Assembly (NCBI RefSeq): GCF_011038975.1
Contig: NZ_JAAKEC010000005.1
Coordinates: 62,001 to 126,000 of the forward strand
Length of the DNA: 64,000 nucleotides
Source: Adlercreutzia sp. ZJ176
GTDB lineage: Bacteria; Actinomycetota; Coriobacteriia; Coriobacteriales; Eggerthellaceae
Reading direction: 5' to 3'
The notes below the pieces were generated by a model that did not search any database, had not been told where the DNA came from, and worked only from the letters and a program-made list of their open reading frames with translations. Made by a program: the position numbers and the translations under genes. Below are positions 11,931 to 41,074 of the stretch, piece by piece (the first letter of the stretch is position 1; each line of letters opens with the position of its first letter).

Positions 11931-11932
11931 CG

Positions 11933-14900: not shown

Positions 14901-15166
14901 TCCTCTTCGTCCGAAAGGGACTCCATCTTGGAGCCCATCGCGACACCCTGAGCTTTATCCCCAGTTGCAACTTCGCCACCCGAAACGCTCTCATCCTCAT
15001 CAGGAATCTCACTGAATTCGCTCCCGACCGGATACAGAACGCCTACCGAATACGCATTTTTGGGTCGAACCCATTCGAGGGTTTCCTCTGACAGCGGATC
15101 CATTGGACCAGCGAACTCTTCATGCACTGCTCTATATAGAGCGTCTCTCATTTCATCGTCGCGCAT
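11933..15166 (-). CDS. drmA: DISARM helicase DrmA
   Basis: A 1077-residue SF2-type helicase. Walker A is PTGGGKTEAY (about residue 433). The DEAH-box position reads IIQDELHLISG (about 648). The C-terminal RecA domain shows TNMISVGLDVPRLG and the arginine-finger motif QATSRVGRGD. In DISARM, DrmA with DrmB loads on DNA with 5' overhangs and blocks incoming phage. The ATG at 15166 has GAGGTGA 5 bp upstream, inside the drmE stop region (gap 10 bp). The AT-rich codon use contrasts with the GC-rich flanks, consistent with transfer of the whole operon. Confidence 0.9.
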   Translation of the reverse strand: MRDDEMRDALYRAVHEEFAGPMDPLSEETLEWVRPKNAYSVGVLYPVGSEFSEIPDEDESVSGGEVATGDKAQGVAMGSKMESLSDEEEPIALSNADYQSAISLTIRVNNKDLLNIEVSAGRYGKELVGEKLVFKREPIMWSVSGFELPSERKKVTSIDIPKTMLVVMMVYRYAINENSSVITVALRNSKKSTNPKSCDTKDCYFQCGFSLKSNLGFEPLPSDDGAEALTEEELSSKLIYSGIANYAIGHGCAADWSDEEPRPITIRTEMIPQSEVRPTMSSVSELDPKAFDMNMLANPGRWDEAERSISSLINAYRKWIEGLEEKALEFDDWRKVAAERNVSNCQQCLNRIDVGFDTLKINRKARMAFHLANEAMLNQYLHYRVVANEADEIDKPADGQRFWRPFQIAFLLMNVNSMVDSDSEDRGLLDLIWFPTGGGKTEAYLGLSAFTLILERLNGEVCEGATILMRYTLRLLSSQQFSRAASLICALEVMRRDNPDLLGAKRFSIGFWVGAAASPNSWSEALKIYKDLRSGKQMEKSIPVVQCPWCGRRMGERGEGYQITRNRDKSRDGDKYLKFVCMNSNCDFSSKDFDLPLKVVDDEIYHEPPSLLLGTVDKFAIIPYRPKSYRIFGISEDGERKHAPKLIIQDELHLISGPLGSMVASYETLISELCTIRDYGGKERKPKIVASTATVSRAKEQCHELFACGKENVKQFPPSGISHDDSFFARLDAVGRGRRYIGLYAPNISFATASIKLYTQLLWESNSWELEDSEQRDPYWTIIGYYGTTRELGQALTWTTSDIPERLYEKRRTYPDGRKRYLDRVVELTGRKDAPEVRRDLSSLTIKFTEQNNRSIDLCLATNMISVGLDVPRLGVMVVAGQPKETAEYIQATSRVGRGDAKGVVLTLYGTTRPRDRSHYENFRNYHESFYQHVEPSSATAFCEQVRERALPGVLFGMYRAERPDAKNPNNPDPAILDDICKRIECRVGRVDVAEKEKAASQLAGIIEEWKSQDYSAWESLKEFPDAPLPLMHPLGGKEHEEWLGRSFEVPTSMRSVDEECKVSIIGWYPSGVDEED

Positions 15167-15176
15167 CGCAATCACC

Positions 15177-17849
15177 TCAACCCATGCACCATCCAAATCG
15201 ACCAGCTGGGACCATCGTAAGATCACCTATATATTCGACGAACAGCAGATCCACCGATCCCATATCCCCGTGTTTGCGACAAAAATCATCCGCGGCTTCT
15301 TCGAGACTTCCCGCCGCCCTTGCGTCTTTGACGAAAGCCTCAGCGATCTCCTGGATCAACTTCCTGCCACTGGTAATCCGATCACCCCTGATAGTTGATG
15401 CAGCCTTCATTATTTCATTGATTTCGGAATCAGTGAATTCCCTGTTGAGAGCTTTACCTATTATCGCGATGTCTTCTTTTTCGCTGGGGGCAATGATCGA
15501 TGAGTCGTTAACCCACCTCGCAATAGTGGCGAGATTTCTTTTGCAGCCCGCCTTGGAAATCCTATCCCTGATACTTCTGCGACTCATGAAGCGCAAAGCT
15601 TCGTCTATTGGTTCGCGCCAGGCTCGCGCCCGCGACGCCACCTCACGTAAGCCATGAGCATTACAAGCCTCATCAAGCGCATCATCATCCGATTCCGTCC
15701 GTAGCACAATATCGCCCTCTTGCAGACCAGCTACCGTCTTTCTGCAATAGCCTATTTCAGGATCGAGGGCATCAGTGACCACAATGAGAGAGTCTCCACC
15801 CTCTTCGCGAACACGAAGCCATCGGCACACGCCAGAAGTGAACCATACCGGACGGCCCCGATAAGCCTCTTCACCGTTGCGGTTTGTACGGCACCACTCA
15901 TTCCTTTCGCGCTCCATTGACCGCGCAATACCAGAAAGCGACTTATCTTGCACCCGTTTTGCATCCTGCTCGGGTTCCGCTATTGGTTTCGGAATAGTCA
16001 CCTTGATTCTCTCGAGGGATTTTCGATACCTCGATTTCTGCGACTTGTGGTGCCTCTTCCAGTAATCGTCGGCACTCAAATACCACTGAGTTTCTAGCTC
16101 GATGGGACTTATACCTCGGTACATGAACACGGTGCACGTACCCGCTAGCCCGGAACCCAGCAGTCGCTCCATCTCCTCACGCCGAAACCACCCAGAAATG
16201 AACACTTCTTCGTCCTCGGGAATAGAATCCTGTTTCAAGAACCTGCGCGGAGCAATTACCCTGATGGCGTCTGGCGACAACCCATCGTACGCGAGCGCCT
16301 CTTTCCAATATTCGCTAGCCGTTCTCTCGTTGACCCCGTTCGAAACCACGAGACACACTTTATGGTGAACGTTTTTCACCGCTCGAACTATCGCACCGTA
16401 CACAGCATTTTCTTTGGGCAGAGCTACATCTGGAAGCGACAGGCTGCGAAGTATCTTCGCAGCCTCCTCGACCTCATGCATCTCTTCCTTCGTAAGCGAG
16501 TAGTTGCTGCTCTCGCCAGTAAGCACGGCATTCGCACCGTCGATCCTATTTCGCAATTCGCTCGACGCGCTCTCGTCAAGCATTTCGGTTTGTCTTAGAG
16601 CCTGTCCCAGCACTCGCGTCAACGTCAACAAAGCCACCTGCTCGCCTTCGGAAAGCTTGTTTCGCCGATCGGCGAGGCCGTACAGTATTCGCGCGGCTTC
16701 CGAGAACCTGCCGTCATCCTCTACGGGCTGGCATCTTATCACTGAATTTGCGGCGCATAATTCCCTCCGCGTTAACGAAAGATGACTCTCGCCACAATAC
16801 CCAGATACGTCTAAGAGCTGCGATTTGCCCCATATGAATACCGGAAAGCCTAATTCGTCAAACACATTGGTGCGTCTTAGAATGCCCTCTTCGCAGAAAA
16901 CCGCGACGGGCACTCCAAACTCATTAATTATGTCCTCTAAGAGTCCACGCATAGAGTCTATGCACTCAGCAGTGGGGGCTTCGAGAACTATCGAGTCAAG
17001 CGTACCGCCCTCATCGAGATATTCATAGAGGTCAAGCAACTCGGATATGCCCTCTTCAGTTCTGCTCGTCACAACGATAGACGGCTCTCCTACAGCGGGA
17101 TAACTGTTACCTCTTTTTATTTCGCCGTCAGAAAATCTTCCCGTAGTCAGGCATTCGGCAAGGGGCAAACCTTCGTTTCCGAAGAATATCTCAGCTGACT
17201 TCAAAACAGTAGGCGGAATGTTCAGATAGGGAGAGGCCGACGTCGCGACCGCCACAGGAGAGACAACGGAGGAGCTCCTATTCCTGAGCATTTGCGCAAT
17301 CTCAGGAAGAGCAGAAAAAGCCACGGCTGTATCTTTCAAGGAACCGCGTGTCCTCAAAGTTGGGACTGTCCCTTCAATGCATCTGTGGAGCGTCGGCAAT
17401 CGGTCTAGCGAGTAATAGCTCTTTACTGGCGACTTTTGATCTTGCCTACGATCTGGCTGCCTGTATTCCAGCATTTTTCCGAGTTGATCGCGCTCCGAAA
17501 TCCCCAGATACTCGACCACCGTCTGACCGATGCAAATTGGCGTTCCTTCACTCAGTTCGTCTTTTTCGATATCTAGGTCAGGATCCAAGCCAAGGACGTT
17601 CTCTATCGCTTTGCTGACGGCAAACGATAATGCCTCCCTCGTATAGTCGCATACGGCAATCACAACGCCCGGCAATTTGGCCTCAATCGCCCTATCCAGA
17701 AAACCTCTGCTAACAGCTGTCACTGCGCTGGGCTTCACGGAACCTAGCTCTTTGTATCGCAGCTCGAAGTCGGGCACAGTCCAAGCCTTAAGACTGCTTT
17801 TAATAAACTCATCGTAAGTCAGCTCTTGGCCTTCGTGTTCTTGAGTCAT
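15177..17849 (-). CDS. drmE: Class 2 DISARM protein DrmE (unknown function)
   Basis: An 890-residue protein. Assignment rests mainly on its size and on its place between the cytosine methyltransferase and drmA, the layout of class 2 DISARM, whose extra gene is drmE. I see no Walker motif. Residues around 480-610 (KVCLVVSNGVNERTA, then EEVFISGWFRREEMERLL) look like an alternating alpha/beta domain reminiscent of a degenerate second RecA fold. The C-terminus is helical. ATG 17849 is preferred over GTG 17858 because GGTGG lies 6 bp before it. A 240-bp spacer with a large hairpin precedes it. Confidence 0.75.
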   Translation of the reverse strand: MTQEHEGQELTYDEFIKSSLKAWTVPDFELRYKELGSVKPSAVTAVSRGFLDRAIEAKLPGVVIAVCDYTREALSFAVSKAIENVLGLDPDLDIEKDELSEGTPICIGQTVVEYLGISERDQLGKMLEYRQPDRRQDQKSPVKSYYSLDRLPTLHRCIEGTVPTLRTRGSLKDTAVAFSALPEIAQMLRNRSSSVVSPVAVATSASPYLNIPPTVLKSAEIFFGNEGLPLAECLTTGRFSDGEIKRGNSYPAVGEPSIVVTSRTEEGISELLDLYEYLDEGGTLDSIVLEAPTAECIDSMRGLLEDIINEFGVPVAVFCEEGILRRTNVFDELGFPVFIWGKSQLLDVSGYCGESHLSLTRRELCAANSVIRCQPVEDDGRFSEAARILYGLADRRNKLSEGEQVALLTLTRVLGQALRQTEMLDESASSELRNRIDGANAVLTGESSNYSLTKEEMHEVEEAAKILRSLSLPDVALPKENAVYGAIVRAVKNVHHKVCLVVSNGVNERTASEYWKEALAYDGLSPDAIRVIAPRRFLKQDSIPEDEEVFISGWFRREEMERLLGSGLAGTCTVFMYRGISPIELETQWYLSADDYWKRHHKSQKSRYRKSLERIKVTIPKPIAEPEQDAKRVQDKSLSGIARSMERERNEWCRTNRNGEEAYRGRPVWFTSGVCRWLRVREEGGDSLIVVTDALDPEIGYCRKTVAGLQEGDIVLRTESDDDALDEACNAHGLREVASRARAWREPIDEALRFMSRRSIRDRISKAGCKRNLATIARWVNDSSIIAPSEKEDIAIIGKALNREFTDSEINEIMKAASTIRGDRITSGRKLIQEIAEAFVKDARAAGSLEEAADDFCRKHGDMGSVDLLFVEYIGDLTMVPAGRFGWCMG

Positions 17850-17978
17850 GCTAACCACCGCTCCGCTTAGCTTAAATAATTACCGCACTTTCCGCCACTA
17901 GGTACATTCCTCACGTTCTATCATTGCAATCCCTAAGACATATTTATTTTATTACCGTGAGCGTAAAGCTCTGAAATA

Positions 17979-18033
17979 AATTCGAGAGCTTAAGAGCGCG
18001 CAGGCCGACATCCAGCTCCTAAGCTCTCGAATT
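17979..18033 (-). terminator. Large hairpin between drmMII and drmE
   Basis: Perfect 14-bp arms AATTCGAGAGCTTA (17979-17992) and TAAGCTCTCGAATT (18020-18033) enclose 27 bases. On the minus strand the stem is followed by TTTATTTC. It probably ends or attenuates the methyltransferase transcript and separates it from the drmE-drmA-drmB-NERD unit, which would then have its own promoter in 17850-17978. Confidence 0.5.
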
Positions 18034-18091
18034 CTCTAGCACCTTTCGAAAGTCCGTGAAACCCAAGCTGTTAACACTCGACACACGCACC

Positions 18092-19111
18092 TTATTCCAC
18101 ATCATCAAGCACTTCCTTAATCCTTCCAGCAATAGCTTTGATAACAGGAACCGTGACCGAATTGCCAAGCTGCTTGTACAGCTGCGTATCAGGTAAAGTC
18201 AACTTATAGCTATCGGGAAATCCCTGAAGGCGCGCCCATTCACGAGGCGTCATTTTGCGAATGTCATCCTTGTTAATCTCGCCTTTGATGTTAGTAACTG
18301 GGATCATTGAGTGCTCACGATGGTCAACGATCAGATTGCGCTCGCGCCCCATTCCTCCACAAACAATAGTATCTGCAATCGAATCCCATTCTCGAATTTC
18401 ATAGCCAAAACCATGACCAAGGGCCTCATGTCGCGCTCGATGACGTCTTAACGTCTCCATATACACATCGGATAAATAGTATTTCGAGCTTATGGGTGCG
18501 TCCTCAAGTATGTCCCGAATGACCTTTTTCTTGCCAGCATGCGTAGGGAACTCGAAGGCCTTTGGCGCAATATCGTTTCGAAATGCAACGATATAAATTC
18601 GCTCACGATTCTGCGGAACGCCAAAGTCTCTGGAATTAAGCACGCTATAGAAGGGCGTATAGCCACCCTCCTCTAAAGCACCGAGAATCACCCTGAGCGT
18701 ACGTCCCTTGTCGTGAATAGGAAGGCCCTTCACATTTTCGCAAAAAATAACTTTGGGCTTATTTGCTCGATCAGCGCACACGCGAAGCATGTCGAAGAAC
18801 AATGTGCCCCTAGCTCGCCCCCTATAATCATCATCGAACCCTTTGCGTCTCCCTGCCAGACTAAATGCCTGGCAGGGAAAACCCGCGAGACAAATATCGA
18901 AATCAGGGATCTCTTCTGCCTCTATTTTTGTGATATCGCCTGCGATTTCAAAGCTGTCTTCGAAGTTCGCTTTGTACGTTTGACATGCGGACTTATCAAG
19001 TTCGCTAACGAAAACCGTCTCCATGCTCCCGCCAAACGCCTGGTCAAATCCCATGCGAATTCCACCGATACCAGCAAAAAGATCGATGGCTCTGTACGCT
19101 CGCCCAACCAC
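18092..19111 (-). CDS. drmMII: DISARM DNA cytosine-5 methyltransferase
   Basis: A 339-residue C5-methyltransferase with the usual ordered motifs: motif I AIDLFAGIGGIRMGF at the N-terminus, motif IV with the catalytic Cys in GFPCQAFSLAG (about residue 78), motif VI FCENVKGL (about 125), QNRERIYIVAF, and motif X near the C-terminus (YKQLGNSVTVPV). It marks host DNA so that DISARM spares it. The GTG at 19111 is chosen because motif I would then start about seven residues in; no good SD is visible, and it overlaps the stop of a small upstream frame (TAGTG). A longer frame to 19213 is unlikely. Confidence 0.88.
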   Translation of the reverse strand: MVGRAYRAIDLFAGIGGIRMGFDQAFGGSMETVFVSELDKSACQTYKANFEDSFEIAGDITKIEAEEIPDFDICLAGFPCQAFSLAGRRKGFDDDYRGRARGTLFFDMLRVCADRANKPKVIFCENVKGLPIHDKGRTLRVILGALEEGGYTPFYSVLNSRDFGVPQNRERIYIVAFRNDIAPKAFEFPTHAGKKKVIRDILEDAPISSKYYLSDVYMETLRRHRARHEALGHGFGYEIREWDSIADTIVCGGMGRERNLIVDHREHSMIPVTNIKGEINKDDIRKMTPREWARLQGFPDSYKLTLPDTQLYKQLGNSVTVPVIKAIAGRIKEVLDDVE

Positions 19112-19359
19112 TATGCACCCAGCTCCCCAAGTGGCTCTTCTTCGACAAGAAGCTTGTCTGACGCAAGCAAAGCCATCACCAAAAAAATGCCAGTGTTGTT
19201 TTTCCGCTGACAAATTCCGCAGTAATCCCCGCCTTGGAAGAGCACGTCGCCCTCCCCTCTTGCTGATGAGCGCATATCTCCCTCGCCTGACTTCTTTCTG
19301 CTTGAATAATGTCTTTCTTGCACAATTGTTCGTTCTAGCCTCTTCGCAAATTTTATCAT
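19111..19359 (-). CDS. Unrecognised 82-residue ORF leading the DISARM operon
   Basis: A frame from ATG 19359 to a TAG that overlaps the GTG of drmMII (TAGTG), which suggests translational coupling. The N-terminus is basic (MIKFAKRLERTIVQERHYSS), a CGIC motif and a hydrophobic GIFLVMALLASDKLL follow, and the end is acidic. No family is recognised and no strong SD is seen. It could be a leader peptide, a small regulator or chance. Confidence 0.35.
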   Translation of the reverse strand: MIKFAKRLERTIVQERHYSSRKKSGEGDMRSSARGEGDVLFQGGDYCGICQRKNNTGIFLVMALLASDKLLVEEEPLGELGA

Positions 19360-27221: not shown

Positions 27222-28232
27222 ATGAACGAAGTCGAGACCACGACCTGCGAGCGCCTGCTCGACAAGTCCCAGGAGGCATTCCTGCTCGCCGTAGAGCTCT
27301 ACAACCGCCCCACGATCCGCTACCACGCAGAGGGGTGCTGCTTCTTCCTGTGCAACGCGTGGGAGCTCATGCTGAAGGCGTACATCATCCGCACGATGGG
27401 CTACGAGGCCGCATACTACCCAGGCAGCGACCGCACGCTCTCGCTCTCGGACTGCCTGAAGAAGGTATTTACCAACGAGAACGACCCGCTGCGCCTCAAC
27501 ATGGAGGTCGTGGGCGAGTTTCGCAACACCAGCACCCACTTCGTCACCGACGAGTACGAGCTGTTCTACGGCCCCATATTGCAGGAGTGCGTGAAGTTCT
27601 ACGAGAAGAAGCTGCGCGAGCTCCACGGCATCGAGATCAGCGACCGCATCCCCGAGAACTACCTGGCGCTGTCGGTGCGCCGGGGTGACGTGGACTACGA
27701 CGTCATCAAGGCACGCTACCCGCGCGAAGTGGTGGAGAAGATGCTTGAGCTCGGCTCCTCGATCGTCGCGAGTCGTCCAAGTGGTGCGGGCATCGGCTAC
27801 GCCACAGAGCTACGTCTCACCAAGAAGAAGGGCGAGGGCATCCCTGTTCGCCTCGCGAATGACGCAGACGCGGCGGTGTCCATCCTTCACTCGCTCACGG
27901 ACCCCATCAACAAGTACACATACCGTACGAAGAGGGGCGCGGGCTTCATCAGACGCAAACTCGGCAAGGAAGGCATCACTCTTCTAGTTAAGGGGAAGCC
28001 GAAGGAGTTCAACACGTTCCATTTTGGCGTGTTCGTCGACTTCTATAACATGAAGGGCAACGACGCATATTCATACAACCTGTCCCTCAGCGACGAGCAG
28101 CCCAGCTGGGGGTACTCGCAGCAGGCCATCGATCTAATGCTCCAAGAGATTAGACGAGACCCCGAGTATGTCATTGACAGCATGCGCGTCGAGCTATCCA
28201 AGCGTAAGTCAAGGGAGAAGAAGAGCCGCTAA
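27222..28232 (+). CDS. DUF3644 domain protein
   Basis: A 336-residue protein whose N-terminal 200 residues match DUF3644 (LDKSQEAFLLAVELYNRPTI, then CFFLCNAWELMLKAYIIR). The family is all-helical, HEPN-like in appearance and frequent in defence islands; its role is not established. I see a possible HEPN-like Rx4-6H element (RNTSTHF at about residue 101), which would suggest RNase activity, but this is speculative. The C-terminal part is unrecognised and ends in a basic Lys/Arg tail. AAAGGG 6 bp before the ATG supports the start. It is transcribed alone. Confidence 0.75.
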   Translation: MNEVETTTCERLLDKSQEAFLLAVELYNRPTIRYHAEGCCFFLCNAWELMLKAYIIRTMGYEAAYYPGSDRTLSLSDCLKKVFTNENDPLRLNMEVVGEFRNTSTHFVTDEYELFYGPILQECVKFYEKKLRELHGIEISDRIPENYLALSVRRGDVDYDVIKARYPREVVEKMLELGSSIVASRPSGAGIGYATELRLTKKKGEGIPVRLANDADAAVSILHSLTDPINKYTYRTKRGAGFIRRKLGKEGITLLVKGKPKEFNTFHFGVFVDFYNMKGNDAYSYNLSLSDEQPSWGYSQQAIDLMLQEIRRDPEYVIDSMRVELSKRKSREKKSR

Positions 28233-30087: not shown

Positions 30088-30097
30088 CTGAAGTCTT

Positions 30098-30142
30098 TGG
30101 TCGCGGGGGCAGGATTTGAACCTACGACCTCCGGGTTATGAG
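30098..30142. repeat. attL: 3' part of tRNA-fMet
   Basis: 45 bp match the 3' end of the intact tRNA-fMet gene (40998-41042) with two differences (30111 and 30123) that together exchange one base pair of the T stem. It marks the left end of the integrated element, next to the integrase gene. Confidence 0.9.
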
Positions 30143-30343: not shown

Positions 30344-31807
30344 ATGAGCAGACGGATAGAGATACTTACCGACCCGGAGATACGAAAACTCAAAAGGGGC
30401 GGCTATTCCGTGAGGTTTCGCATTCCCCCACATCACGGACTGCCGGAGAGCAAAAGCCCCAGGCGAAAACTCCAAGTGAGGAGTATCGGTGCTGCTCGCA
30501 AAGAGGCGGAGAACTACCGAAGGGAACTCGAAGACGAGATAAACGATTACAGGAACATAACCAACATCACCTTCGGGGATTATCTGAAACGATGGCACGA
30601 AGACAGGGTCGAGATGGGCGAAAGAGCCATCGGAACTTTGGAAGTCGAAGAACTCTACATCAGGCAAATAGACGAAACAGCCCTCGCAAGGATAGAACTC
30701 AAGGAGATTGACGAGAACGACCTCGACAACTTCAAAAAGGAGAACAAGAGGCTGGGACGGTCAAATGACAGGCAGGACAAACTGCTGAAACTGGTGAAGC
30801 AGGTGCTGAAGCACGCCGAAGTTCGGAGGGAAATCAAACACAACCCGAGCGGAGCGGTCGAGAACATAAAGAGAGACATCAAGGACAAGCGGAAAGCCCT
30901 CACACGGGAAGACCAGCAACGCCTGATAGAGGCATTGGAAAGCGAAGACATTACGGGCAAGACCGTCGTGGTTCGCATAGCGTTCTCAACTGGTTTCAGG
31001 CGCGGAGAGTGCTTGGGACTTCAATGGGGAGACATCGACTTCAAAAAGAAGACGATAAACCTCACACGCCAACTGACCTCGAAGGGCGAATACGCACCCC
31101 CGAAGTTCGGGGGAAGCGGGGTCATACCCATCGGAGACGGTCTCGTTCGCTATCTTCGCCGTTGGAAGGAAAAGACCTCGAGGCAGTTCTACAGAGGCGG
31201 GCGTGTGCCGAAGGAAAGCCCCGTGTGCCGGAACAACAACGGCAAGCAACTACAAGCGGCGAACTTTGACAAATGGCGGCGTGATTGGTTCGTAGAACAC
31301 GGGTTGGGAGAATACACCGAGATAAGGGTGAGTTGGGACAGCAAGGGACGCAAGCGATACCACAAGACCGGCTATAAGGGCTATCGCCTACACGAGTTGC
31401 GGCACACTATGGCAACCGAACTGGTGGGCAATGCCGACCTGAAGACGGCACAGACGATTATGAGGCACACCAACATAAACACGACGGCGGGATATGTTCA
31501 CGAGATAGACGAGAATGTCCGCAATGCCGCCAACCTGCTCGATGATATGAGGGAGAGCGGAAGCGAGCCAAAGCGCAAAGAAGACCAGGTGGCAAAAGAC
31601 GAGAAAAGGTTCAAGGAGGACAGAATAGGCGCTATGGAAAGGGCTTACAAGCGCCAGCACGGCAAATGCGCCGAATGCGGCAAGCGTTTTGAAAAGAGTG
31701 AGATGGTCGGGGGCTTTATTACCTCTTTGTCCAAAGACGGCATTCAGACAACCGGAAACTTCCAACTGCTCTGTAAGGACTGTAATATGAAAATGGCTGT
31801 TCGCTAA
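30344..31807 (+). CDS. int: Tyrosine recombinase/integrase with C-terminal CxxC domain
   Basis: A 487-residue phage-type integrase. The N-terminal arm-binding segment is followed by a SAM-like core-binding domain (ITFGDYLKRWHEDR). The catalytic domain shows Arg in STGFRRGECLGLQW (about 220), HELRHTMATEL (about 350), His in TIMRHTNINTT and the nucleophile Tyr in AGYVHEI. After the usual end, an extra 60 residues hold KCAECGKRF and LLCKDCN, a treble-clef of HNH type that seems to lack the catalytic His. GGAG 8 bp before the ATG supports the start. It should join the element to tRNA-fMet through the 45-bp att core. Confidence 0.9.
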   Translation: MSRRIEILTDPEIRKLKRGGYSVRFRIPPHHGLPESKSPRRKLQVRSIGAARKEAENYRRELEDEINDYRNITNITFGDYLKRWHEDRVEMGERAIGTLEVEELYIRQIDETALARIELKEIDENDLDNFKKENKRLGRSNDRQDKLLKLVKQVLKHAEVRREIKHNPSGAVENIKRDIKDKRKALTREDQQRLIEALESEDITGKTVVVRIAFSTGFRRGECLGLQWGDIDFKKKTINLTRQLTSKGEYAPPKFGGSGVIPIGDGLVRYLRRWKEKTSRQFYRGGRVPKESPVCRNNNGKQLQAANFDKWRRDWFVEHGLGEYTEIRVSWDSKGRKRYHKTGYKGYRLHELRHTMATELVGNADLKTAQTIMRHTNINTTAGYVHEIDENVRNAANLLDDMRESGSEPKRKEDQVAKDEKRFKEDRIGAMERAYKRQHGKCAECGKRFEKSEMVGGFITSLSKDGIQTTGNFQLLCKDCNMKMAVR

Positions 31808-31870: not shown

Positions 31871-32743
31871 CTACCCGTCGCCCGACTCGTTGAACCACTC
31901 CTTGAACACGGTGGTCTCAAATCCCGCCTTGTCGTTTCTAACCGTCTTGGAAGACGAGAAGGTCTGCTTATGGGACTTCCTATAAGCATTCGCCTCCCGC
32001 TCGCTCATTTGGCGTTTGGTGGGTCTCTTCACGCCTCGTGAGCAACGGTAGATGTTGAAGCCGGCAGGGTATAGGTGAAGCCTCCCGCCCTTGATGACCG
32101 CTTTCTTCTCCCCGTTGACTTCCTTCACATCGTCCCCGCAACCGTCATCGACGAGCACATCGGACAGATAGGCTGAAAGGTATGCCCCAAGGTTGTCCAC
32201 ATCGTCGACCTTGGAGACCTTCGTAAAGCCGTGCCGCCATATCCGCCCAATGTCGTCGTTGGGAAGGAACGGGGCTTTGCCCCGGTAGAAGAGAAGCAGA
32301 TGGAAATGGAAGCGCTGCTTCCCGTCCGGCGTCTCGCTCGGGGCGTTCGGCTCGCACACGACGAGGTATTCGGGCTTCTCAAAGCCGTTCTTTGAACTCC
32401 ACCTGACGAACCTCTTCCAAAATGCGGAGAAGTCCTTGTAGAGTCGTTCCGTGTCGTCCTGCGGCTCGGCGTAGGTGAGCGTGATGAACCGCACCTTCCC
32501 AGGGTCAGCCGAGTTGGCGTTGACTATGCCCCTGATGGTGGCGAAGGTCCTCAACAGGGAGCGATGGCATTGGGAACGGTTGACGCTTCTCTCCCCGTAT
32601 TCGCATATCTCGCCGGTCGTAAGGTTCACATACTCGTTCGCTGAAATCTTCTTCGCCCTACAGGTTTTGTTCGCTTTCGTCGTTTGGGTGATTATCGTTA
32701 TGTTCCCCTGTCGCTCAAATGTGGTGTATAGCGTGTCTTCCAT
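31871..32743 (-). CDS. Rolling-circle replication initiator (HUH endonuclease)
   Basis: A 290-residue protein with the three HUH motifs in order: FITLTYAEP (about residue 95), the metal-binding FHFHLLLF (about 155) and YLSAYLSD with candidate nicking tyrosines (about 200). This is the REP_ORF2/G2P-like rolling-circle replication family. In an AICE it would copy the excised circle or provide the strand for transfer. It lies opposite to int, with its end near the int stop. An imperfect hairpin region upstream (32782-32829) is a candidate origin. Confidence 0.8.
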   Translation of the reverse strand: MEDTLYTTFERQGNITIITQTTKANKTCRAKKISANEYVNLTTGEICEYGERSVNRSQCHRSLLRTFATIRGIVNANSADPGKVRFITLTYAEPQDDTERLYKDFSAFWKRFVRWSSKNGFEKPEYLVVCEPNAPSETPDGKQRFHFHLLLFYRGKAPFLPNDDIGRIWRHGFTKVSKVDDVDNLGAYLSAYLSDVLVDDGCGDDVKEVNGEKKAVIKGGRLHLYPAGFNIYRCSRGVKRPTKRQMSEREANAYRKSHKQTFSSSKTVRNDKAGFETTVFKEWFNESGDG

Positions 32744-33037: not shown

Positions 33038-33208
33038 CTACGCTCCCTTCATAAGCCTTTTCACGGCGGAGATGGTGGCGCTGCTGGTGCTCAACTCCTG
33101 CTCTATCTCCCTGTATGTCTTTCCTTCGTTGATTGCCTTGGCAATCGCCTCCCTCTTTACCTGCTTATCCACCTCGTGTCTGTATAGGTAGTCTCTCTTC
33201 TTTTCCAT
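33038..33208 (-). CDS. 56-residue helix-turn-helix protein
   Basis: The frame encodes a short Lys-rich protein whose second half, EAIAKAINEGKTYREIEQEL followed by STSSATISAVKRLMKGA, is a typical helix-turn-helix of the TrpR/sigma-like kind. AAGGA 9 bp before ATG 33208 is a good SD. It overlaps the 3' end of the translocase gene by 44 bp. A small HTH at this place may be the excisionase or a transfer regulator. Confidence 0.65.
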   Translation of the reverse strand: MEKKRDYLYRHEVDKQVKREAIAKAINEGKTYREIEQELSTSSATISAVKRLMKGA

Positions 33209-34514
33209 AGTCGGTGTCCTTCGGTCTCAAATGCCTTGTCTCCTCGGCAATCCTCTTTTCCGTCCTCTCGTCTATGTATGCCGCCTTGAACAGGCGGGGC
33301 TTCTCCATATGCCCCTCGCAAAAGATGTAGCCGACCCCTTTTGACGAGATGGGTATCTCACAACTCGGCGCTTCGTCCGCCCTCGTGTCGAAGAGCATTT
33401 CGTCGCTCCTTGCGTCCCCGCTGCTGAACCCCAGCAGGTTCGAGGTCAAAAGAGAGCGGGTTGTGGTGTCGACGAGACCCGACATAAAACGCTGGGTGAT
33501 GAGGAATATGCTCATTCCGTATGCTGCGTTCCTGCTCGCCGCCCTGAAGACCGCCCTGTCGACCTCGTCCCCGACCTTGCGGGGCTTCTTGCCGTCCGGG
33601 TCTTCCACTACCGAGGTTCGCAAGATGGCGTATTCGTCGATAATCAGCGTTATGTGGGGAAGGTCGTCGGAGAACTGCTCAATCTTCTTCAGCCCGTGCT
33701 CCAGGCAGTAGGCTTTGCGCCTCTCCGCTTCATCGTTCAGCGAGTTTACGACATTGAGGACATCTACCGGGTCGTCGTGTAGTTCCGCCCTGTCCTCGTA
33801 TGCCCTGAAGTCCATTATCTTGTTCGAGCAGACTATCAGGCGCTCGTTCTCCAGCCGGGAGAGCATTGCTATGAAAGACGAGGTGGCAGCCGACTTCCCG
33901 CTGCGGGACTGCCCCGCTATCATTCCGCCCACAACGCCGTCGAGGGTCATATAGGCGGTCTCGCCGGTGGCATACAGCCCTATCGGTATCCTCTCCCTCG
34001 TCGGCTCTTCCCTCAAGTCGTCGAAGAGGACGCTCATAGCCGTAAGCGTCGCAATCTCGGTCTCGGTGTAGAAGACGACCTCGTAGCCGAAGAAGCCCTC
34101 TTCGTTCGGGGGAAGGCGCTCGACATCTGCCCTGACTGCCTTGAATGCGGGCAGGCTCGCCTCGACGATACGCTCCAACCTCTCCTTCGTCGAGCCATAC
34201 CTCATCGGGTGGTAGACGAAGCGTATGGGGTTGTCGTTCAGGCAGTCGAACTGCTCCTCGTCCTGCGGCTCTATGCCGCCCTCTCGCAAGCACTCCGAGA
34301 ACTGCTCCTTCAGGCGCTTCCTGTGCCTGTCCCTCTCGTCTTGCTGTATGGACACCTCGCTTTCGGGGTGTCTGACCGAGTAGTAGATAATGCCGAGCGA
34401 CAGCCAAAGGGGAGCGATGGCGACGGCGTATAGCCCGAAGAGAAGCGATACGCCGCCAACGATAGAGAAGAGCAGGAGGACGGAGAGGCGCAAGTGGTCC
34501 TCAACCCACTCCAT
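33165..34514 (-). CDS. FtsK/TraB-like DNA translocase
   Basis: A 449-residue protein. Two hydrophobic segments (about residues 9-45) anchor the N-terminus. The motor follows with Walker A GMIAGQSRSGKSAATSS (about 200), Walker B ITLIIDEYAIL (about 287) and a later LITQRF strand. One membrane-bound FtsK-like ATPase moving double-stranded DNA is the transfer machine of actinomycete AICEs and Streptomyces plasmids. It fits with the rolling-circle protein and the small OB-like protein encoded just upstream (gap 4 bp). Confidence 0.85.
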   Translation of the reverse strand: MEWVEDHLRLSVLLLFSIVGGVSLLFGLYAVAIAPLWLSLGIIYYSVRHPESEVSIQQDERDRHRKRLKEQFSECLREGGIEPQDEEQFDCLNDNPIRFVYHPMRYGSTKERLERIVEASLPAFKAVRADVERLPPNEEGFFGYEVVFYTETEIATLTAMSVLFDDLREEPTRERIPIGLYATGETAYMTLDGVVGGMIAGQSRSGKSAATSSFIAMLSRLENERLIVCSNKIMDFRAYEDRAELHDDPVDVLNVVNSLNDEAERRKAYCLEHGLKKIEQFSDDLPHITLIIDEYAILRTSVVEDPDGKKPRKVGDEVDRAVFRAASRNAAYGMSIFLITQRFMSGLVDTTTRSLLTSNLLGFSSGDARSDEMLFDTRADEAPSCEIPISSKGVGYIFCEGHMEKPRLFKAAYIDERTEKRIAEETRHLRPKDTDYGKEERLPIQTRGG

Positions 34515-34518: not shown

Positions 34519-34848
34519 CTACTCCTTCATCTTGCCCATCTTCTCTGCGGAGAACGCAAGTTGGGCTCGGTTGCCGCTGTTGTAGGCGAGGGCGGTCAAT
34601 CCAACGAAGCCGACAGGGGAGAACTCCGGTATCTGCGGCTCTTGGGGAAGGGCAATCTTCACCGTGATGGTCTCGGGCTTCGTCGCCCCCTTCTGCTTGG
34701 CGAGGCACACGACGCCGTAGAGCGGCGTGCCGTTCTCGTCCCTGTCCTGCTCGTTCGTCGCTTCGCCGTCAACATACCTCACTCGTGGCTCTGCGGATAG
34801 GTAGCGGATATAATCAAACCCGCTCTGGTCAACGAATACCCTGTTCAT
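34519..34848 (-). CDS. AICE-type small conserved protein (SCO3933-like)
   Basis: A 109-residue protein. The pattern DRDENGTPLYGVVCLA, then TITVKIALP, VGFVGLTALAYNSGNRAQL and AFSAEKM resembles the short conserved proteins encoded beside the FtsK-like gene in Streptomyces AICEs (annotated as SCO3933-family regulatory proteins). The beta-rich layout suggests an OB-like fold. GGAAGGAA 8 bp before ATG 34848 fixes the start. Similarity was judged by eye only. Confidence 0.5.
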   Translation of the reverse strand: MNRVFVDQSGFDYIRYLSAEPRVRYVDGEATNEQDRDENGTPLYGVVCLAKQKGATKPETITVKIALPQEPQIPEFSPVGFVGLTALAYNSGNRAQLAFSAEKMGKMKE

Positions 34849-34870
34849 CGTAGTATTCCTTCCAATCGTG

Positions 34871-35584: not shown

Positions 35585-35914
35585 TCAGAACACGAGAAGC
35601 ATATAGCCGCCGTTCTCCAAGCGGGTAATCGAGGTCCTGTATTCCAACTCGTCCACCAGCGCCTCAATCTTCTCCTCCTGGTCGTCGAAGGTCTCGCCCC
35701 GCTCGTCAAGGAGATAACCATAGTCGTATAGCAGCGCTTCCCCGTCGTCGTATTCGGTGAAGTCGCAACAGACGGCTATGACATCGAACTCTGCGTCCAA
35801 CTCGTCCAATGTCTCGTAGAGGTAGTCGTAGCCAGCGGTCGAGTAGTAGTCCCTGCCCATATCCTTGAAGCCCCGCTCGAATGCGTAGCGGTCAATCGTG
35901 GTGTGTAGCGCCAT
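35585..35914 (-). CDS. Small acidic protein, paralogue 1
   Basis: A 109-residue, strongly acidic protein. Conserved-looking parts are YETLDELDAEFDVIAVCCDF with TEYDD, and ITRLENGGYMLLVF at the end. It shares plan and ending with the protein at 37284-37616. Proteins with a DVIA-CC-(D/E)(F/Y)-(S/T)EY core are common in phages and conjugative elements; their acidity suggests a nucleic-acid mimic or anti-defence role, which is unproven. The TAGGAG SD 8 bp before the ATG is buried in a 12-bp hairpin. Confidence 0.6.
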   Translation of the reverse strand: MALHTTIDRYAFERGFKDMGRDYYSTAGYDYLYETLDELDAEFDVIAVCCDFTEYDDGEALLYDYGYLLDERGETFDDQEEKIEALVDELEYRTSITRLENGGYMLLVF

Positions 35915-35920
35915 AAGAAA

Positions 35921-35952
35921 ACTCCTATACAGTCGGTGTCCTGTATAGGAGT
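35921..35952 (-). promoter_or_regulatory. Hairpin burying the SD of acidic protein 1
   Basis: Perfect 12-bp arms ACTCCTATACAG / CTGTATAGGAGT with an 8-base loop. On the minus strand the second arm contains TAGGAG, the SD of the gene at 35914, and is followed by TTTTC. It could hide the SD, act as a terminator for the upstream operon, or both. Confidence 0.55.
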
Positions 35953-35985
35953 TTCGTTCAGTCGTCGCTGGTTTTGGGAATGCCG

Positions 35986-36462
35986 CTACAAGCCGTCCCC
36001 CAGCGCCTTGTCTAAAGCGGATTGCTTTCCCGTCTCGGCAGCAGCCCCGATGTCCTCAATCAGCCTCTTCGCCTGCTCCTCTATGCGTTCCACCGCTTTG
36101 TTTATCCGGTCTTCGTTTTCGCATATGAAGTCGACAAGACCCCTCACATCGGAGTAGTTCTGGTAATCGCCGCCTTTGCTCAACTGACGATAGACGCTGA
36201 ACATCTTTGTCTTGCCGCCATATTCCAACCTGAACGCTCTCACGGTCAGGTCTCCAAGAGGCTCGTCATCGTCCGACCAGCGCTGAACGAGGTCGTATAT
36301 CGGCACGAGCGGCTCTCGGTTGCCGCATATGCCCTCCCGCTCGCCCTCGTCATAAGCGCCCTCGCAATAGGAGCAAGCGCTTTCCCGCCTCTGCTCTCCT
36401 ATGGCATAGCCGTTGGAGTTTGGGATTCTGCTATGTCCGTCTTTGTACAAGGTGAGTTTCAT
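35986..36462 (-). CDS. Hypothetical protein with CxxC site
   Basis: A 158-residue protein. An early SACSYCEGAY and a nearby CGN suggest a small metal site (about residues 29-46). The middle (FRLEYGGKTKMFSVYRQL) is beta-rich, and the end is a long helix (RINKAVERIEEQAKRLIEDI). ATG 36462 is chosen because upstream sequence belongs to the zinc-ribbon gene in another frame; its SD is weak. Function unknown. Confidence 0.5.
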   Translation of the reverse strand: MKLTLYKDGHSRIPNSNGYAIGEQRRESACSYCEGAYDEGEREGICGNREPLVPIYDLVQRWSDDDEPLGDLTVRAFRLEYGGKTKMFSVYRQLSKGGDYQNYSDVRGLVDFICENEDRINKAVERIEEQAKRLIEDIGAAAETGKQSALDKALGDGL

Positions 36463-36524
36463 CTTCGCTACCACGCTGACCCCAAGGACCGGCGGTATCG
36501 CTCCCGCCAGCCCAATCCGTGCCG

Positions 36525-36713
36525 TCAATCGCCAATGTCGTCGAAATAGCAGGTGAACACGGCTGCTCTCTGGTCCGTCCCGGTCCACCCGCAATCCGAG
36601 CACTCTGCCTGGTATACAACGCTGTCTCCGTCGACATCGCAAGGCTCGTAGTCCCGCTCTACCCGTCCTCCGCACTTCGGGCACACGCCCTCTCGGCTGT
36701 CATCGTATATCAT
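36525..36713 (-). CDS. Small zinc-ribbon protein
   Basis: A 62-residue protein with paired CPKC (about residue 11) and CSDC (about 38), a classic zinc ribbon, and an acidic tail. AAGGAGG 7 bp before ATG 36713 is strong. It lies between the RHH gene and the preceding CxxC protein on the same strand, so all are probably one operon. A DNA- or protein-binding adaptor is likely but not shown. Confidence 0.65.
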   Translation of the reverse strand: MIYDDSREGVCPKCGGRVERDYEPCDVDGDSVVYQAECSDCGWTGTDQRAAVFTCYFDDIGD

Positions 36714-36765
36714 TCCGCTGCCTCCTTGCCGTGATTGTCGTCGAAAGAAACCGTCGGCTCTTGGT

Positions 36766-37089
36766 CTATTCCAGCGCCTTTAGTTTCTCGTTTATAGCCT
36801 CTTGGACGGCGTTCTGTATGAAGGTCATACACTCGCCCCTGCTCGGCTTCCAATCCTCGTCGGAGAACGGCGGGGGGTCTTTGCGCAATGTCCCCTCGAC
36901 TGCGTGAAGCATATGGCGAAGACTAACCCCCTCGTTTATCGCTTCTACGATGTAGTCGGTTTGGCTCACCCCGTTAGCCTTTGCCCGCTCTTCTACCTTT
37001 TTCTTCACGCCCACAGGCATACGGATACTGACCATAACCGTAGCCGCCGTCCCTCGCGCCGTCTGGTCCAGTTCGTCAATCTTGCCCAT
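36766..37089 (-). CDS. Ribbon-helix-helix regulator
   Basis: A 107-residue protein. Residues 15-55 (VMVSIRMPVGVKKKVEERA, then SQTDYIVEAINEGV) are a ribbon-helix-helix DNA-binding domain; the C-terminal half is helical and probably mediates oligomer formation. AAGGAG 6 bp before the ATG fixes the start. The divergent AT-rich promoter in front carries TACAATATATTGTA palindromes, repeated before int, so this is the likely master repressor of the element. Confidence 0.75.
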   Translation of the reverse strand: MGKIDELDQTARGTAATVMVSIRMPVGVKKKVEERAKANGVSQTDYIVEAINEGVSLRHMLHAVEGTLRKDPPPFSDEDWKPSRGECMTFIQNAVQEAINEKLKALE

Positions 37090-37117
37090 ATACGAACTCC
37101 TTCACAAATCCCACACA

Positions 37118-37215
37118 TTACAATATTTTATATATCACCTGGTAAATATAGCATAAATCATTTTTCATTACAATATATTGTATTCAATATATTATGTATA
37201 TTATATTGTATTGAC
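37118..37215. promoter_or_regulatory. AT-rich divergent promoter with repeated operator sites
   Basis: A 14-bp palindrome TACAATATATTGTA (37169-37182) is flanked by partial copies: TTACAATATTTTA (37118-37130), CAATATATTATG (37185-37196) and TATATTGTATTG near 37202-37213. It separates the RHH operon from the rightward operon that begins with acidic protein 2. Confidence 0.6.
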
Positions 37216-37283
37216 ACTTGTATTTACGACCTGTATTATGAAGATGTCATTTTGAGACATCGAACTGTAAGGAGGTGATTGGA

Positions 37284-37616
37284 ATGTTGATTTACAAAAG
37301 AATGGACGCAAGGGATATGGAGTGCTTCTTTGAAGACAGAGCCGGCTACGAGCACAAGTTCTCAAGGTCGGGTTTAGAGGCAGTCGTTGGCTTCTACGAA
37401 GACAACGACATTGACACCCTGTTTGATGTCGTAGGTTTTGCCTGTTCGTGGCGCGAATACGGCTCTAATGGCGAACTGTTCAGCAACTACGAGTATCTAC
37501 TCGAAGAGGAATACGGCGAGCCGGACGGCGCATTTGAAGACCTCGTTCAAAAACTCCGAGACCGAACCGTCCTGTTGGAAACCGAAAGCGGCGGCTATGT
37601 CGCCGGGGTCTTCTGA
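37284..37616 (+). CDS. Small acidic protein, paralogue 2
   Basis: A 110-residue acidic protein: FSRSGLEAVVGFYEDND, then TLFDVVGFACSWREY, and a C-terminus LLETESGGYVAGVF. Its order of elements and its ending match paralogue 1 (LENGGYMLLVF). ATG 37284 follows AAGGAGG at 37269-37275 at normal spacing; a GTG at 37275 overlaps the SD itself. It is the first gene of the rightward operon, so it would be made early when the RHH repressor is released, as expected for an anti-restriction or establishment protein. Function is inference. Confidence 0.6.
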   Translation: MLIYKRMDARDMECFFEDRAGYEHKFSRSGLEAVVGFYEDNDIDTLFDVVGFACSWREYGSNGELFSNYEYLLEEEYGEPDGAFEDLVQKLRDRTVLLETESGGYVAGVF

Positions 37617-38580: not shown

Positions 38581-39663
38581 CTACTTGCCGCCCTTCCTGC
38601 GATTACAGTCCCTACAGAGCATTTGGCAGTTGTCGGCGGTCGTTGCGCCGCCCTCCGACCACGGAGTTATGTGGTCTCCCTCCATCTGCTCTATGGAGAA
38701 ATGACCTCCGCAAGACGGACACACGCCATCTTGCCTCTCGTATGCTTCACGCTTCATCTTGTCAGTGAAAGCACGAATGTTGAGATGGCGCTCGTCTCCG
38801 TCGAGGACATAGGCGTATATGCCCTTCTTGTTGGTAATGTCGTCGTCAATCATCAGGTCTTTTATCCGCTGCTCCAACTCCGTTGGGTTCAAAACCTCGT
38901 CCTTGTGGGCGGCATACAGACCGCCCCAGTCGAGACCCTTCATTTCCCTGCGGTAGTTCGGAAATGTCGCTCTCACCCAGTCGATGACCCTTTGGTAATA
39001 CGCCCACTCAACGCCGGCGTTGCCATCGTGCTGGTGTCGAGCCATATATTCCTCGATGTTGTTGTTGCTTATCCATTTGAGGACAGTCTGTAGGTAGTCT
39101 TGCCGAATGGGGCTGCCCGTCAAGTAGTCCTTGCCCTTGCGATACGCCACACAGTTAGTCTTGGAGAAATACCGCTTTGCGTCGGTAAGCCACTCCCCCG
39201 CATAGACGGCGTTCCTCAACTCTTGGTCGGTCAACTTCTCGCCGGCGATGTTGATGGTGCGAAACCAGTCCAACTTCTCGCTGTCCTTGCCCTCACAGAT
39301 GTAGATGGTGAGGGGATAGTCAAGTATCTGCTTCTGCTCGTCAGCCGTGAGGTTGTGAAACCCCCGATAGTCAACGGTGAAGTTCCCGTCGAGGTATTCA
39401 CAGAAACTGATGGTCCTCTGCTGACCGTCCAGGACCTCATAATAGCCGCCGTCGGTCTTCACCCAATACATCACATTGAGGGGAAAGCCCTTTGTGATGG
39501 TGTCTATGACGGCGTTCCTCTTTGCGTCGTCATAGACGAACTCACGCTGATACTTGGGACGGATTGAGAGTTTGCCGTTGAGAGCATACACTCCCTCTTC
39601 GTCGTCGTTAATATAACCTTGATAGACCTCGCCTACCGTCGTCTCGTGTAGAGTTATCTTCAT
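38581..39663 (-). CDS. DUF262-HNH nuclease (GmrSD-like), partner of the methyltransferase
   Basis: A 360-residue protein. The N-terminal DUF262 (ParB-like) domain shows IRPKYQREFVYDD and YEVLDGQQRTISF, a likely NTP-dependent DNA-sensing unit. The C-terminus is an HNH nuclease: CPSCGGHF, EGDHITPWSEGG and MLCRDCNRRKGG. In GmrSD-type enzymes these two parts form a nuclease for modified DNA. Here the gene follows an EcoRI-family methyltransferase by 8 bp, so the pair looks like a restriction-modification unit. AGGGA 6 bp before ATG 39663. Confidence 0.8.
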   Translation of the reverse strand: MKITLHETTVGEVYQGYINDDEEGVYALNGKLSIRPKYQREFVYDDAKRNAVIDTITKGFPLNVMYWVKTDGGYYEVLDGQQRTISFCEYLDGNFTVDYRGFHNLTADEQKQILDYPLTIYICEGKDSEKLDWFRTINIAGEKLTDQELRNAVYAGEWLTDAKRYFSKTNCVAYRKGKDYLTGSPIRQDYLQTVLKWISNNNIEEYMARHQHDGNAGVEWAYYQRVIDWVRATFPNYRREMKGLDWGGLYAAHKDEVLNPTELEQRIKDLMIDDDITNKKGIYAYVLDGDERHLNIRAFTDKMKREAYERQDGVCPSCGGHFSIEQMEGDHITPWSEGGATTADNCQMLCRDCNRRKGGK

Positions 39664-39671
39664 TGCCGTCC

Positions 39672-40793
39672 CTACTTTTCTGGGCACAGAATGCGAACAA
39701 GAATGCGGAAATACTCTCTGTGTAGAGTAAAGCCTTTTCTCTTGTCTTCATCGGTCAGTTTCCGTGTATAAAACGACAACCCGCCTGTTTGGAATCTCTC
39801 ACTATCATCAACGCAATCTTTGATTGGCTTTGCGTCAAACAGACTTGCTCCAACAATCTCAAACTGGTCAGGGTCATATTTATCCAAAAAGGTGATTGGA
39901 ACGCCCATCACGCCATCGTAGTCAACAGGTATATCAAGCGTCTTATCTACATTTATTGCGTCGTAGTTTTCATAGCAAAAGTACTTTTCGGGAGTATATT
40001 CTTCTACAAGAATAAGCGGTTCGTGTCGTTGCTTGTAGTCCACATTGGTAAACCAGCGAATGCCTTTTACTCTTATGTATTTATTCCCGTCTTCGTCAAC
40101 ACGACAACCAGCAGCATTGAGAGGGTAGTCGTTGGGAACTCTAAACTCCCTATCGCCGCTGTGAATACTTGCTCCCAGCCAAATCTTGTTGTTCATTATA
40201 AGAGGAAAAACCTCTTTGTAAGTAATGGCGTTTTGATTGCCTAAAATGATGAAGTCTTTTTCGTGCTCGACGAGTTGAGCCAAATATTTTCTGAACAACG
40301 AAAAAGGCGGGTTGGTAATAACGACATCTGCTTCGTCAAGTAGCGCCACGCATTCAGGGCTACGGAAATCCCCATCGCCCTCTAAAACCGTGAGGGCATT
40401 CTTCTTGTTCTTTATGAGGTATTCAACATCGGATAAATCTATCTTGCCGTCGTTGTTCTCGTCGCTTACCTCTGTAATCTCTATCTTATAAGGTTGCTTG
40501 GAACTGCCCCCCCCCGTGGAGGATATGTCGTCAAACAAAGACAATTGCGTTTGAGCGACCGGTGAACCAGCGTAGCAAGTCGATATAAGTTTCTTCAATC
40601 CCAGGCGATTGAAGTTCATTGCGAAGTATTTGAAGAAGTTGCTCTCATAGGGGTCATCACAGTTAAGAAAGACTGTCTTTCCTTTGAAGTAATCCCTGTA
40701 ATACTTCATCTCCTTTTCTATATCAACGAGTTGAGTATAGAACTCGTCTTTTTTTGCTTTTGCCGCATTGGATAGGGCTTGATTTTTTGCCAT
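39672..40793 (-). CDS. EcoRI-family adenine-specific DNA methyltransferase
   Basis: A 373-residue enzyme of the M.EcoRI type: DEFYTQLVDIEKEMKYY near the N-terminus, FLNCDDPYESNFFKYF, and motif IV NPPFSLFRKYL (about residue 180), the adenine-modifying N-P-P-F form. It would protect the element's and host's DNA from the adjacent nuclease. Within codons about 92-95 (SSTGGGSS) lies a run of nine G residues; a change of one base would shift the frame and switch the enzyme off. The present length is in frame. The recognition sequence cannot be read from the protein. Confidence 0.85.
   Translation of the reverse strand: MAKNQALSNAAKAKKDEFYTQLVDIEKEMKYYRDYFKGKTVFLNCDDPYESNFFKYFAMNFNRLGLKKLISTCYAGSPVAQTQLSLFDDISSTGGGSSKQPYKIEITEVSDENNDGKIDLSDVEYLIKNKKNALTVLEGDGDFRSPECVALLDEADVVITNPPFSLFRKYLAQLVEHEKDFIILGNQNAITYKEVFPLIMNNKIWLGASIHSGDREFRVPNDYPLNAAGCRVDEDGNKYIRVKGIRWFTNVDYKQRHEPLILVEEYTPEKYFCYENYDAINVDKTLDIPVDYDGVMGVPITFLDKYDPDQFEIVGASLFDAKPIKDCVDDSERFQTGGLSFYTRKLTDEDKRKGFTLHREYFRILVRILCPEK
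40507..40515 (-). repeat. G9 homopolymer tract in the methyltransferase gene
   Basis: Nine consecutive C on the plus strand (G on the coding strand) sit inside the reading frame, at ACG GGG GGG GGC. Such tracts slip during replication and make genes phase-variable. Confidence 0.8.
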
Positions 40794-40989: not shown

Positions 40990-40997
40990 GGTCTTCT

Positions 40998-41074
40998 TGG
41001 TCGCGGGGGCTGGATTTGAACCAACGACCTCCGGGTTATGAGCCCGGCGAGCTACCAGACTGCTCCACCCCGCA
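40998..41074 (-). tRNA. Initiator tRNA-fMet (CAT anticodon)
   Basis: A 77-nt tRNA on the minus strand: GCGGGGTGGAGCAG D-side, anticodon arm GGGCTCATAACCC with the three G:C pairs typical of initiators, T arm GTTGGTTCAAATCCAGC and an encoded CCA end. The first base is U opposite G72, not a Watson-Crick pair, again an initiator feature. It is the target gene of the integrative element, and its 3' 45 nt are part of attR. Confidence 0.95.

Follow-up and report, generated by a model that had tools for sequence, protein, structure and literature searches.

Two homologous acidic proteins of a small tRNA-Met integrative element, members of a mainly viral family, as candidate anti-defence factors

A small integrative element of Adlercreutzia sp. 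ZJ176 carries two strongly acidic proteins, here termed P1 (109 residues) and P2 (110 residues), which are homologous beyond chance and belong to a family that appears to be mainly viral. The element, 10.9 kb in length, resides in a tRNA-Met gene between 14-bp core repeats, within a 64,000-nucleotide stretch (contig NZ_JAAKEC010000005.1, positions 62,001 to 126,000) that is referred to below as the window; its features are collected in Table 1. We propose, with a probability of about one half, that P1 and P2 are establishment-type, DNA-mimicking anti-defence proteins of this element. The proposal starts from the acidity and mainly viral occurrence of the family, the location in a tRNA-Met element with an FtsK translocase, and the layout of promoter and repeats in front of P2. 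P1 and P2 constitute a concrete, testable pair within one element and, were the proposal correct, small FtsK-type integrative elements would carry establishment genes in the manner of large conjugative plasmids.

In the mechanism that we envisage, the ribbon-helix-helix (RHH) protein encoded next to P2 would keep the promoter of P2 repressed for as long as the element is resident in a cell, and entry into a cell free of repressor would release a burst of P2 until repressor accumulates. The element would enter as double-stranded DNA if its movement resembles that of the actinomycete integrative and conjugative elements (ICEs). The acidic surface of P2 would then imitate DNA and lodge in the cleft with which an enzyme of the recipient binds DNA, so that the incoming DNA is protected; this enzyme would most likely belong to a restriction-modification system or to another, related defence that senses DNA. 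P1 might act in the same way on another target, under separate control by a hairpin at its ribosome-binding site.

Both open reading frames (ORFs) are present where the initial annotation had placed them, in the ORF list as well as in the sequence. For P2, the ATG at 37284 is most likely the start rather than the listed GTG at 37275, because an AGGAGG ribosome-binding site occupies 37270-37275, 8 nt upstream of that ATG. The two products share 34 identical residues over 102 positions (BLASTP, single comparison, E 2e-6), and their local alignment score of 123 was reached by none of 5000 composition-preserving shuffles (mean 33.4, maximum 73), which confirms the kinship first suggested by a common order of motifs. 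The strong acidity likewise holds, with isoelectric points of 4.05 for P1 and 4.19 for P2 and charges at pH 7 of -21.4 and -15.4, respectively. So does the Gly-Gly-Tyr ending: read directly, P1 closes with NGGYMLLVF and P2 with SGGYVAGVF, giving the common form GGY-x4-F, and the consensus of the wider family ends similarly, in ...FIIQxF.

Single-sequence searches with P1 and P2 returned no close relatives in genome contigs or in plasmids, and in phages only matches at E >= 0.3. The family was found instead by scanning at the DNA level for a degenerate form of the core, D-[VI]-I-A-x-C-C-[DE]-[FY]-x-E-Y, loosened from P1 and from what is usual in such proteins. This pattern occurs in at least 120 stretches of the viral contigs, and a shorter one occurs in at least 600; both figures count pattern matches, and tblastn, run with the divergent P2 as query, confirmed 16 of the 600. 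In the genome collection, a motif that differs from the shorter one by one residue occurs in 11 stretches, six of them confirmed as relatives by tblastn with P1, and in the class of the host four of 376 genomes carry a member, the window's own genome counted in. A viral member used as the query recovered 13 phage records and one plasmid record.

A hidden Markov model (HMM) built from 88 non-redundant viral sequences, with P1 and P2 left out, matches P1 with 58.2 bits and P2 with 30.2 bits over most of their length (HMMER E-values were computed for a search size of 10,000), while the best of 10,000 shuffles, 2500 for each of four members, reached 12.6 bits; masking of the 12-residue core leaves P1 with 23.7 bits. 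In a 70-row alignment the core takes the form D-x4-C-C-x3-E-Y, in which D44, E54 and Y55 (P1 numbering) are invariant; F12, F16, F24, L32, I46, A47, C49, C50 and T94 are near-invariant, the two cysteines being kept in at least 90% of rows. P1 has both core cysteines, whereas P2 has A-C where the family has C-C. Sixty-seven of the 70 aligned members match phrog_9974 at E <= 0.01, as does P1 (E 0.0041), whereas the match of P2 is weak (E 0.15); phrog_9974 carries no assigned function and hence gives the two proteins no name. No model of Pfam, NCBIfam or PADLOC matches more than three of the 70 members. Literature searches naming phrog_9974 or the motif string DVIALCC found nothing, and no such family is named in the titles and abstract openings of the topical literature surveyed, a coverage that excludes most subscription journals.

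Extreme acidity is a trait of the whole family. Among 87 members, one per locus, the mean charge is -18.9 (range -28.3 to -10.4) and 93% lie at or below -13, compared with a mean of -0.7 and 6.1% for 393 other, mechanically called ORFs of 80-130 residues from the same contigs.

As the initial annotation had it, P2 is the first rightward gene beside the RHH gene, and the two share one intergenic region. The RHH gene product matches phrog_582, an Arc-like repressor family (E 2.8e-6). Five promoter-like sites were found in the region, against 1.6 (standard deviation 1.5) in shuffles. Of the three related AT-rich repeats in front of P2, the last overlaps the -35 element of the P2 promoter. Promoter-like sites that face leftward, to the RHH gene, overlap these repeats too, and we propose the repeats as putative operators of the RHH protein. 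On p576-type plasmids, as described in section 4.1 of PMC8708921, RHH repression is the means by which establishment genes come to be expressed in a burst once the plasmid is in the recipient. The combination of RHH gene, promoter and repeats matches the RHH-repressed establishment promoters of p576 and therefore lends support to our proposal. The likeness to the pLS20 and p576 establishment genes of that account lies in the proximity of an RHH regulator and a strong promoter, which in those plasmids gives transient expression upon entry; the difference is that the present case concerns a 10.9-kb integrative element whose regulation is read from sequence alone.

The leader of P1 is of another kind, with a hairpin whose 3' arm contains the P1 AGGAG (z -5.3, equalled by none of 200 shuffles), with the Shine-Dalgarno stretch 99% paired. 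In the P1 leader of a related element, introduced below, the outer arms are kept (12 nt, 92% complementary) and the inner part is changed; that hairpin is weaker (z -2.3, pairing 0.70), and four of 200 shuffles fold as well. Possible functions of the P1 hairpin are attenuation, the gating of translation and service as a single-strand promoter. As a trait of the family such a hairpin was rejected: Shine-Dalgarno pairing above 0.8 was seen in one of 87 viral members, against 9 of 298 in the background.

A further line of evidence comes from this related element, likewise in tRNA-Met, of a genome from another family of the same order (G334, locus L289; hereafter the sister element). By tblastn the amino acid identities between the two elements are 86% for the integrase, 89% for the Rep protein, 83% for FtsK, 89% for the SCO3933-like protein, 94% for the restriction enzyme, 62% for the methyltransferase and 45% for P1 (53% by pairwise alignment). 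At a synonymous divergence (dS) of 1.55, within the 1.12-1.80 of integrase, Rep, FtsK, SCO3933-like protein and restriction enzyme and, as in all of these, near saturation, P1 shows a non-synonymous divergence (dN) of 0.344, 3-9 times the 0.039-0.114 of these five core genes; the two shortest ORFs gave dS 0.59-0.70 and dN 0.115-0.117. The dN/dS of P1 is 0.22, which indicates continuing purifying selection. Net charge is retained (-21.4 in P1, -23.5 in the sister copy), with 23 of 29 acidic positions remaining acidic. Fast evolution with preserved charge is what an arms-race protein under a charge constraint would be expected to show. P2 finds in the sister element only a 33-residue tblastn match, inside the stretch homologous to P1, and the RHH, CdiA_C-like and zinc-ribbon genes, as well as the ORF directly behind P2, have no tblastn match there.

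The term 'paralogous', used for the pair in the initial annotation, stands as far as homology is concerned and fails if taken to mean local duplication: P1 and P2 look like two old, separate lineages of one family and not like a recent tandem duplication. In a tree of 116 rows, with few columns and a bootstrap that had not settled, P1 pairs with its counterpart from the sister element (support 100/98) and P2 with copies from two genomes of one other genus, G003 and G005 (99/64), on long branches that make this placement weak; P1, P2 and the latter copies come together with one clostridial and one viral copy (89/67). The P2-like genes of these two genomes (L003, 1489-1875; L005, 1486-1893) overlap the ORF of an insertion sequence (IS) transposase of the IS110 family tail-to-tail by 4 nt, in the manner of IS passengers. 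Paired members also occur in two viral loci (L035, 799-1092 and 1114-1410; L110, 5566-5865 and 6910-7161), and pairing is therefore not unique to this element.

Several findings weigh against the anti-defence proposal. Besides the near-saturated dS values, the methyltransferase is as divergent between the two elements as P1 (dN 0.337, dS saturated), and a high dN of P1 can also mean relaxed constraint. With its core masked, P2 scores 9.3 bits against the viral-family HMM, within the range of the shuffles; its placement therefore leans on the core and on the match to P1, which lowers the certainty for P2 alone and not for P1 or the family. When 115 of the 154 larger neighbours of the viral members were compared with PHROGs, the commonest assigned families were those of the large terminase subunit, one of which accounted for up to 10 of the 115, and of replication genes; none of the 25 families that head the list of 141 is an anti-defence family.

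This last observation, together with the location of most members in viral contigs and the same-strand orientation of 138 of 158 nearest neighbouring ORFs, suits the best of the alternatives, namely that the family takes over a housekeeping DNA-binding enzyme of the host (RNA polymerase, gyrase, a glycosylase or condensin) by imitating DNA or binding basic surfaces, and so aids replication instead of countering defences. The acidity fits this equally well. We nevertheless judge it rather unlikely: the excess of P1 dN over the five core genes is less to be expected with a housekeeping target, and the placement beside an RHH gene in an integrative element resembles that of establishment genes.

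The structural evidence on the anti-defence proposal is mixed. AlphaFold produced confident models of P1 (predicted local distance difference test score, pLDDT, 88; predicted template modelling score, pTM, 0.76) and of P2 (pLDDT 87, pTM 0.77). The structural match to an unrelated enzyme that the initial annotation had named as grounds for refuting its reading did not appear, Foldseek against the PDB giving no match at E <= 0.001 for either model. A viral structure library yielded two matches at this threshold, one unnamed and one uncharacterised, and its antirestriction-labelled entry came at a non-significant E of 3.0; a sequence search of solved structures gave only two weak matches (E 0.2 and 0.93). 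After re-ranking of the PDB matches, the top entry for both models was the antirestriction DNA mimic ArdA, in its Tn916 structure (2w82), with Z 4.7, a root-mean-square deviation (rmsd) of 5.3 and 96 of 109 residues aligned for P1 (first of 103 pre-selected chains) and Z 4.3, rmsd 4.0 and 93 of 110 residues for P2 (first of 125), both Z scores lying below 8, under which a match may reflect no more than a shared arrangement, and in the range that unrelated folds can give. The alignments cover ArdA residues 47/53-165, both being co-terminal at 165 and 1.0 Z over the next row. The Foldseek E-values for ArdA (3.4 for P1, 2.2 for P2) are not significant, and the two models share most of the alignment, so that they should not be counted as independent.

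Profile comparison is no more decisive. HHalign comparison of the family with ArdA gave probabilities of 1.3% and 5.6% in early versions. With an ArdA profile from 61 of 88 collected sequences that passed a length filter, the probability was about 8% against the full protein and 12-13% when ArdA was truncated behind its DYE motif. One collinear helical stretch aligns with a best score of 21.2-21.6, at only 8-13% probability; this exceeds the controls, in which column shuffles (150 and 60) reached maxima of 18.2 and 20.2, reversed profiles 12.8-15.2 and decoys 16.6, the decoy set being small, with 17 windows drawn from no more than 10 clusters. A circular-rotation control was poor because many rotations keep the aligned block. 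A second ArdA alignment of 20 columns scores 19.2, and the alignment is thus not unique. PF07275 matches neither P1 nor P2 (Pfam, E up to 1) nor the 70 members (E up to 0.1), and direct reading of P1 and P2 shows neither of the motifs carried by most ArdA sequences in the alignment, YN-x-G...W in the N-terminal part and Y-G-R-D in the C-terminal part. Homology to ArdA is accordingly not established.

What likeness there is consists of strong acidity (mean charge -33 in the 61 ArdA sequences), occurrence in mobile elements and the top re-ranked fold. That P1 and P2 work like ArdA, a claim separate from homology, is moderately supported. The sArdA proteins, sArdN and sArdC, described as ArdA-like proteins of 88 and 114 residues with antirestriction activity (J Bacteriol 2025, PMC12548430), make small size no obstacle. 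According to that description they resemble P1 and P2 in size class, in negative charge and in having chromosomal copies in Actinomycetota; they differ in having been found as relatives of ArdA, and the mutagenic sArdC primer, translated by eye, reads AYGR followed by the replaced D40, a motif absent from P1 and P2. The comparison draws on the published description and this primer.

The initial suggestion of anti-defence factors is thus partly supported: it is favoured by the mobile element, the acidic and viral family, the RHH and promoter layout and the fast evolution of P1 at ordinary dS. ArdA is the top re-ranked structure for both models, but its scores fall within the range of unrelated folds and its profiles do not establish homology. 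A bolder extension, which we advance tentatively and regard as possible rather than probable, is that the family comprises abundant new compact DNA mimics that keep the fold of the second and third ArdA domains and dispense with the first, and that many phages as well as integrative elements deploy against defences which scan DNA (restriction, BREX, DISARM), P1 and P2 being differently regulated and directed at different targets. Such a family would explain a common phage gene and provide a new set of small inhibitors.

Two other explanations fare less well. The proteins may have some other phage or element function, such as that of a small structural, assembly or metabolic helper protein, their acidity having no part in DNA mimicry. 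The absence of an assigned function for phrog_9974 leaves room for this, and the invariant D, E and Y with the near-invariant CC could form a catalytic or metal site; we consider it unlikely in view of the uniformly high net negative charge across the family, and the models brought up no PDB fold at the threshold given above, though weak matches exclude nothing. A role as partner within the element, either as immunity protein of the CdiA_C-like nuclease or as controller of the type II restriction-modification pair, appears improbable. In its favour, acidity is common in immunity proteins, the CdiA_C-like gene and P1 converge, and P1 and the restriction genes are kept together in both elements. 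Against it, the sister element has P1 without a CdiA_C-like gene, which disfavours immunity, and the first 25 of the 141 families found near viral members (115 neighbours) include one DNA methyltransferase family, with two members.

Table 1. Features of the integrative element (positions in the window)
Feature	Position	Strand	Basis or remark
attL core TTGGTCGCGGGGGC	30097..30110	plus	recurrence of tRNA-Met 3'-end core
Tyrosine integrase with C-terminal HNH domain	30344..31807	plus	PF00589 77.4 bits, PF01844 27.8 bits
Rep protein (REP_ORF2-G2P)	31871..32743	minus	PF23343 66 bits, cut-off 27.8
FtsK/SpoIIIE translocase, proposed transfer protein	33165..34514	minus	PF01580 30 bits, cut-off 24
SCO3933-like protein	34519..34851	minus	31 bits, below NCBIfam cut-off 80; listed ORF extends to 34926
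Nuclease-like CdiA_C-domain protein, gene convergent with that of P1	35085..35474	plus	PF18451 38.1 bits, cut-off 26.6
P1, acidic 109-residue family member	35585..35914	minus	ORF and viral-family HMM
Hairpin in P1 leader	35919..35954	minus	perfect 14-bp arms, 8-nt loop, P1 AGGAG in 3' arm
ORF upstream of P1	35986..36462	minus	no Pfam match; start 36462 probable
Zinc-ribbon-like small protein	36525..36713	minus	below Pfam cut-offs
RHH regulator, divergent from P2	36766..37089	minus	Arc 18.2 bits and RHH_1 17.7 bits (Pfam), slightly below cut-offs
AT-rich repeats	37119-37134, 37169-37184, 37197-37212		three related repeats
Sigma70-like promoter before P2, TTGACA-17-TATTAT	37211..37239	plus	11/12 consensus matches
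AGGAGG ribosome-binding site of P2	37270..37275	plus	direct sequence reading
P2, acidic 110-residue divergent family member	37284..37616	plus	ORF listed from GTG 37275
Small ORFs behind P2	37696-38016, 38017-38289, 38219-38578	plus	ORF list
Type II restriction enzyme (GmrSD_N and HNH)	38581..39687	minus	PADLOC REase_II 456.9 bits; Pfam
EcoRI-type adenine methyltransferase	39672..40793	minus	PF13651 486.8 bits; PADLOC MTase_II 398.4 bits
attR core	40997..41010	plus	inside 3' end of tRNA-Met (tRNA 40998-41074, minus)

Outside the pair, the gene content of the element appears to fit the modules of the actinomycete ICEs. Those elements, as characterised in PMC3218068, combine a tyrosine integrase, a tRNA 3'-end site, an FtsK-type Tra protein and Rep, and transfer as double-stranded DNA; the tyrosine integrase, tRNA 3'-end site and FtsK/SpoIIIE Tra of the definition given there are all found here. 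The likeness thus extends over these four components, and the difference lies in Rep: the definition names a replication protein of RepSA, RepAM or Prim-Pol type, and that of the present element matches REP_ORF2-G2P (PF23343). From the left core onwards, 46 bp (30097-30142) match the end of tRNA-Met at the sister locus without a difference. A search for an empty site in genomes of the same genus gave right-flank pieces, with no useful left flank, in one of two other genomes. The FtsK protein has no match in plasmids, and near its relative in genome G133 no family member was found among the ORFs of the locus concerned (L161). The small ORFs behind P2 may form the rest of a rightward operon headed by P2; the first has no Pfam match and the third no family match. 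A longer frame of the ORF upstream of P1 gave no family match either.

To the left of the element (7972-19213 and 27222-28232), the window holds further defence genes, encoding DrmA, DrmB and a methylase with a DrmMII match; the DISARM genes thus lie in the window but outside the element. A NERD-helicase-like protein and a PDC-S19 protein are also encoded among them. Two minor observations concern the sister element. Its restriction-enzyme HNH domain resembles the HNH domain of the present integrase (48% over 48 residues), and its methyltransferase gene (L289, 6990-7620) contains an AG-dinucleotide tract, and behind the gene come two further ORFs with the same MGVPITFL segment, so that this methyltransferase looks phase-variable, with tandem C-terminal cassettes.

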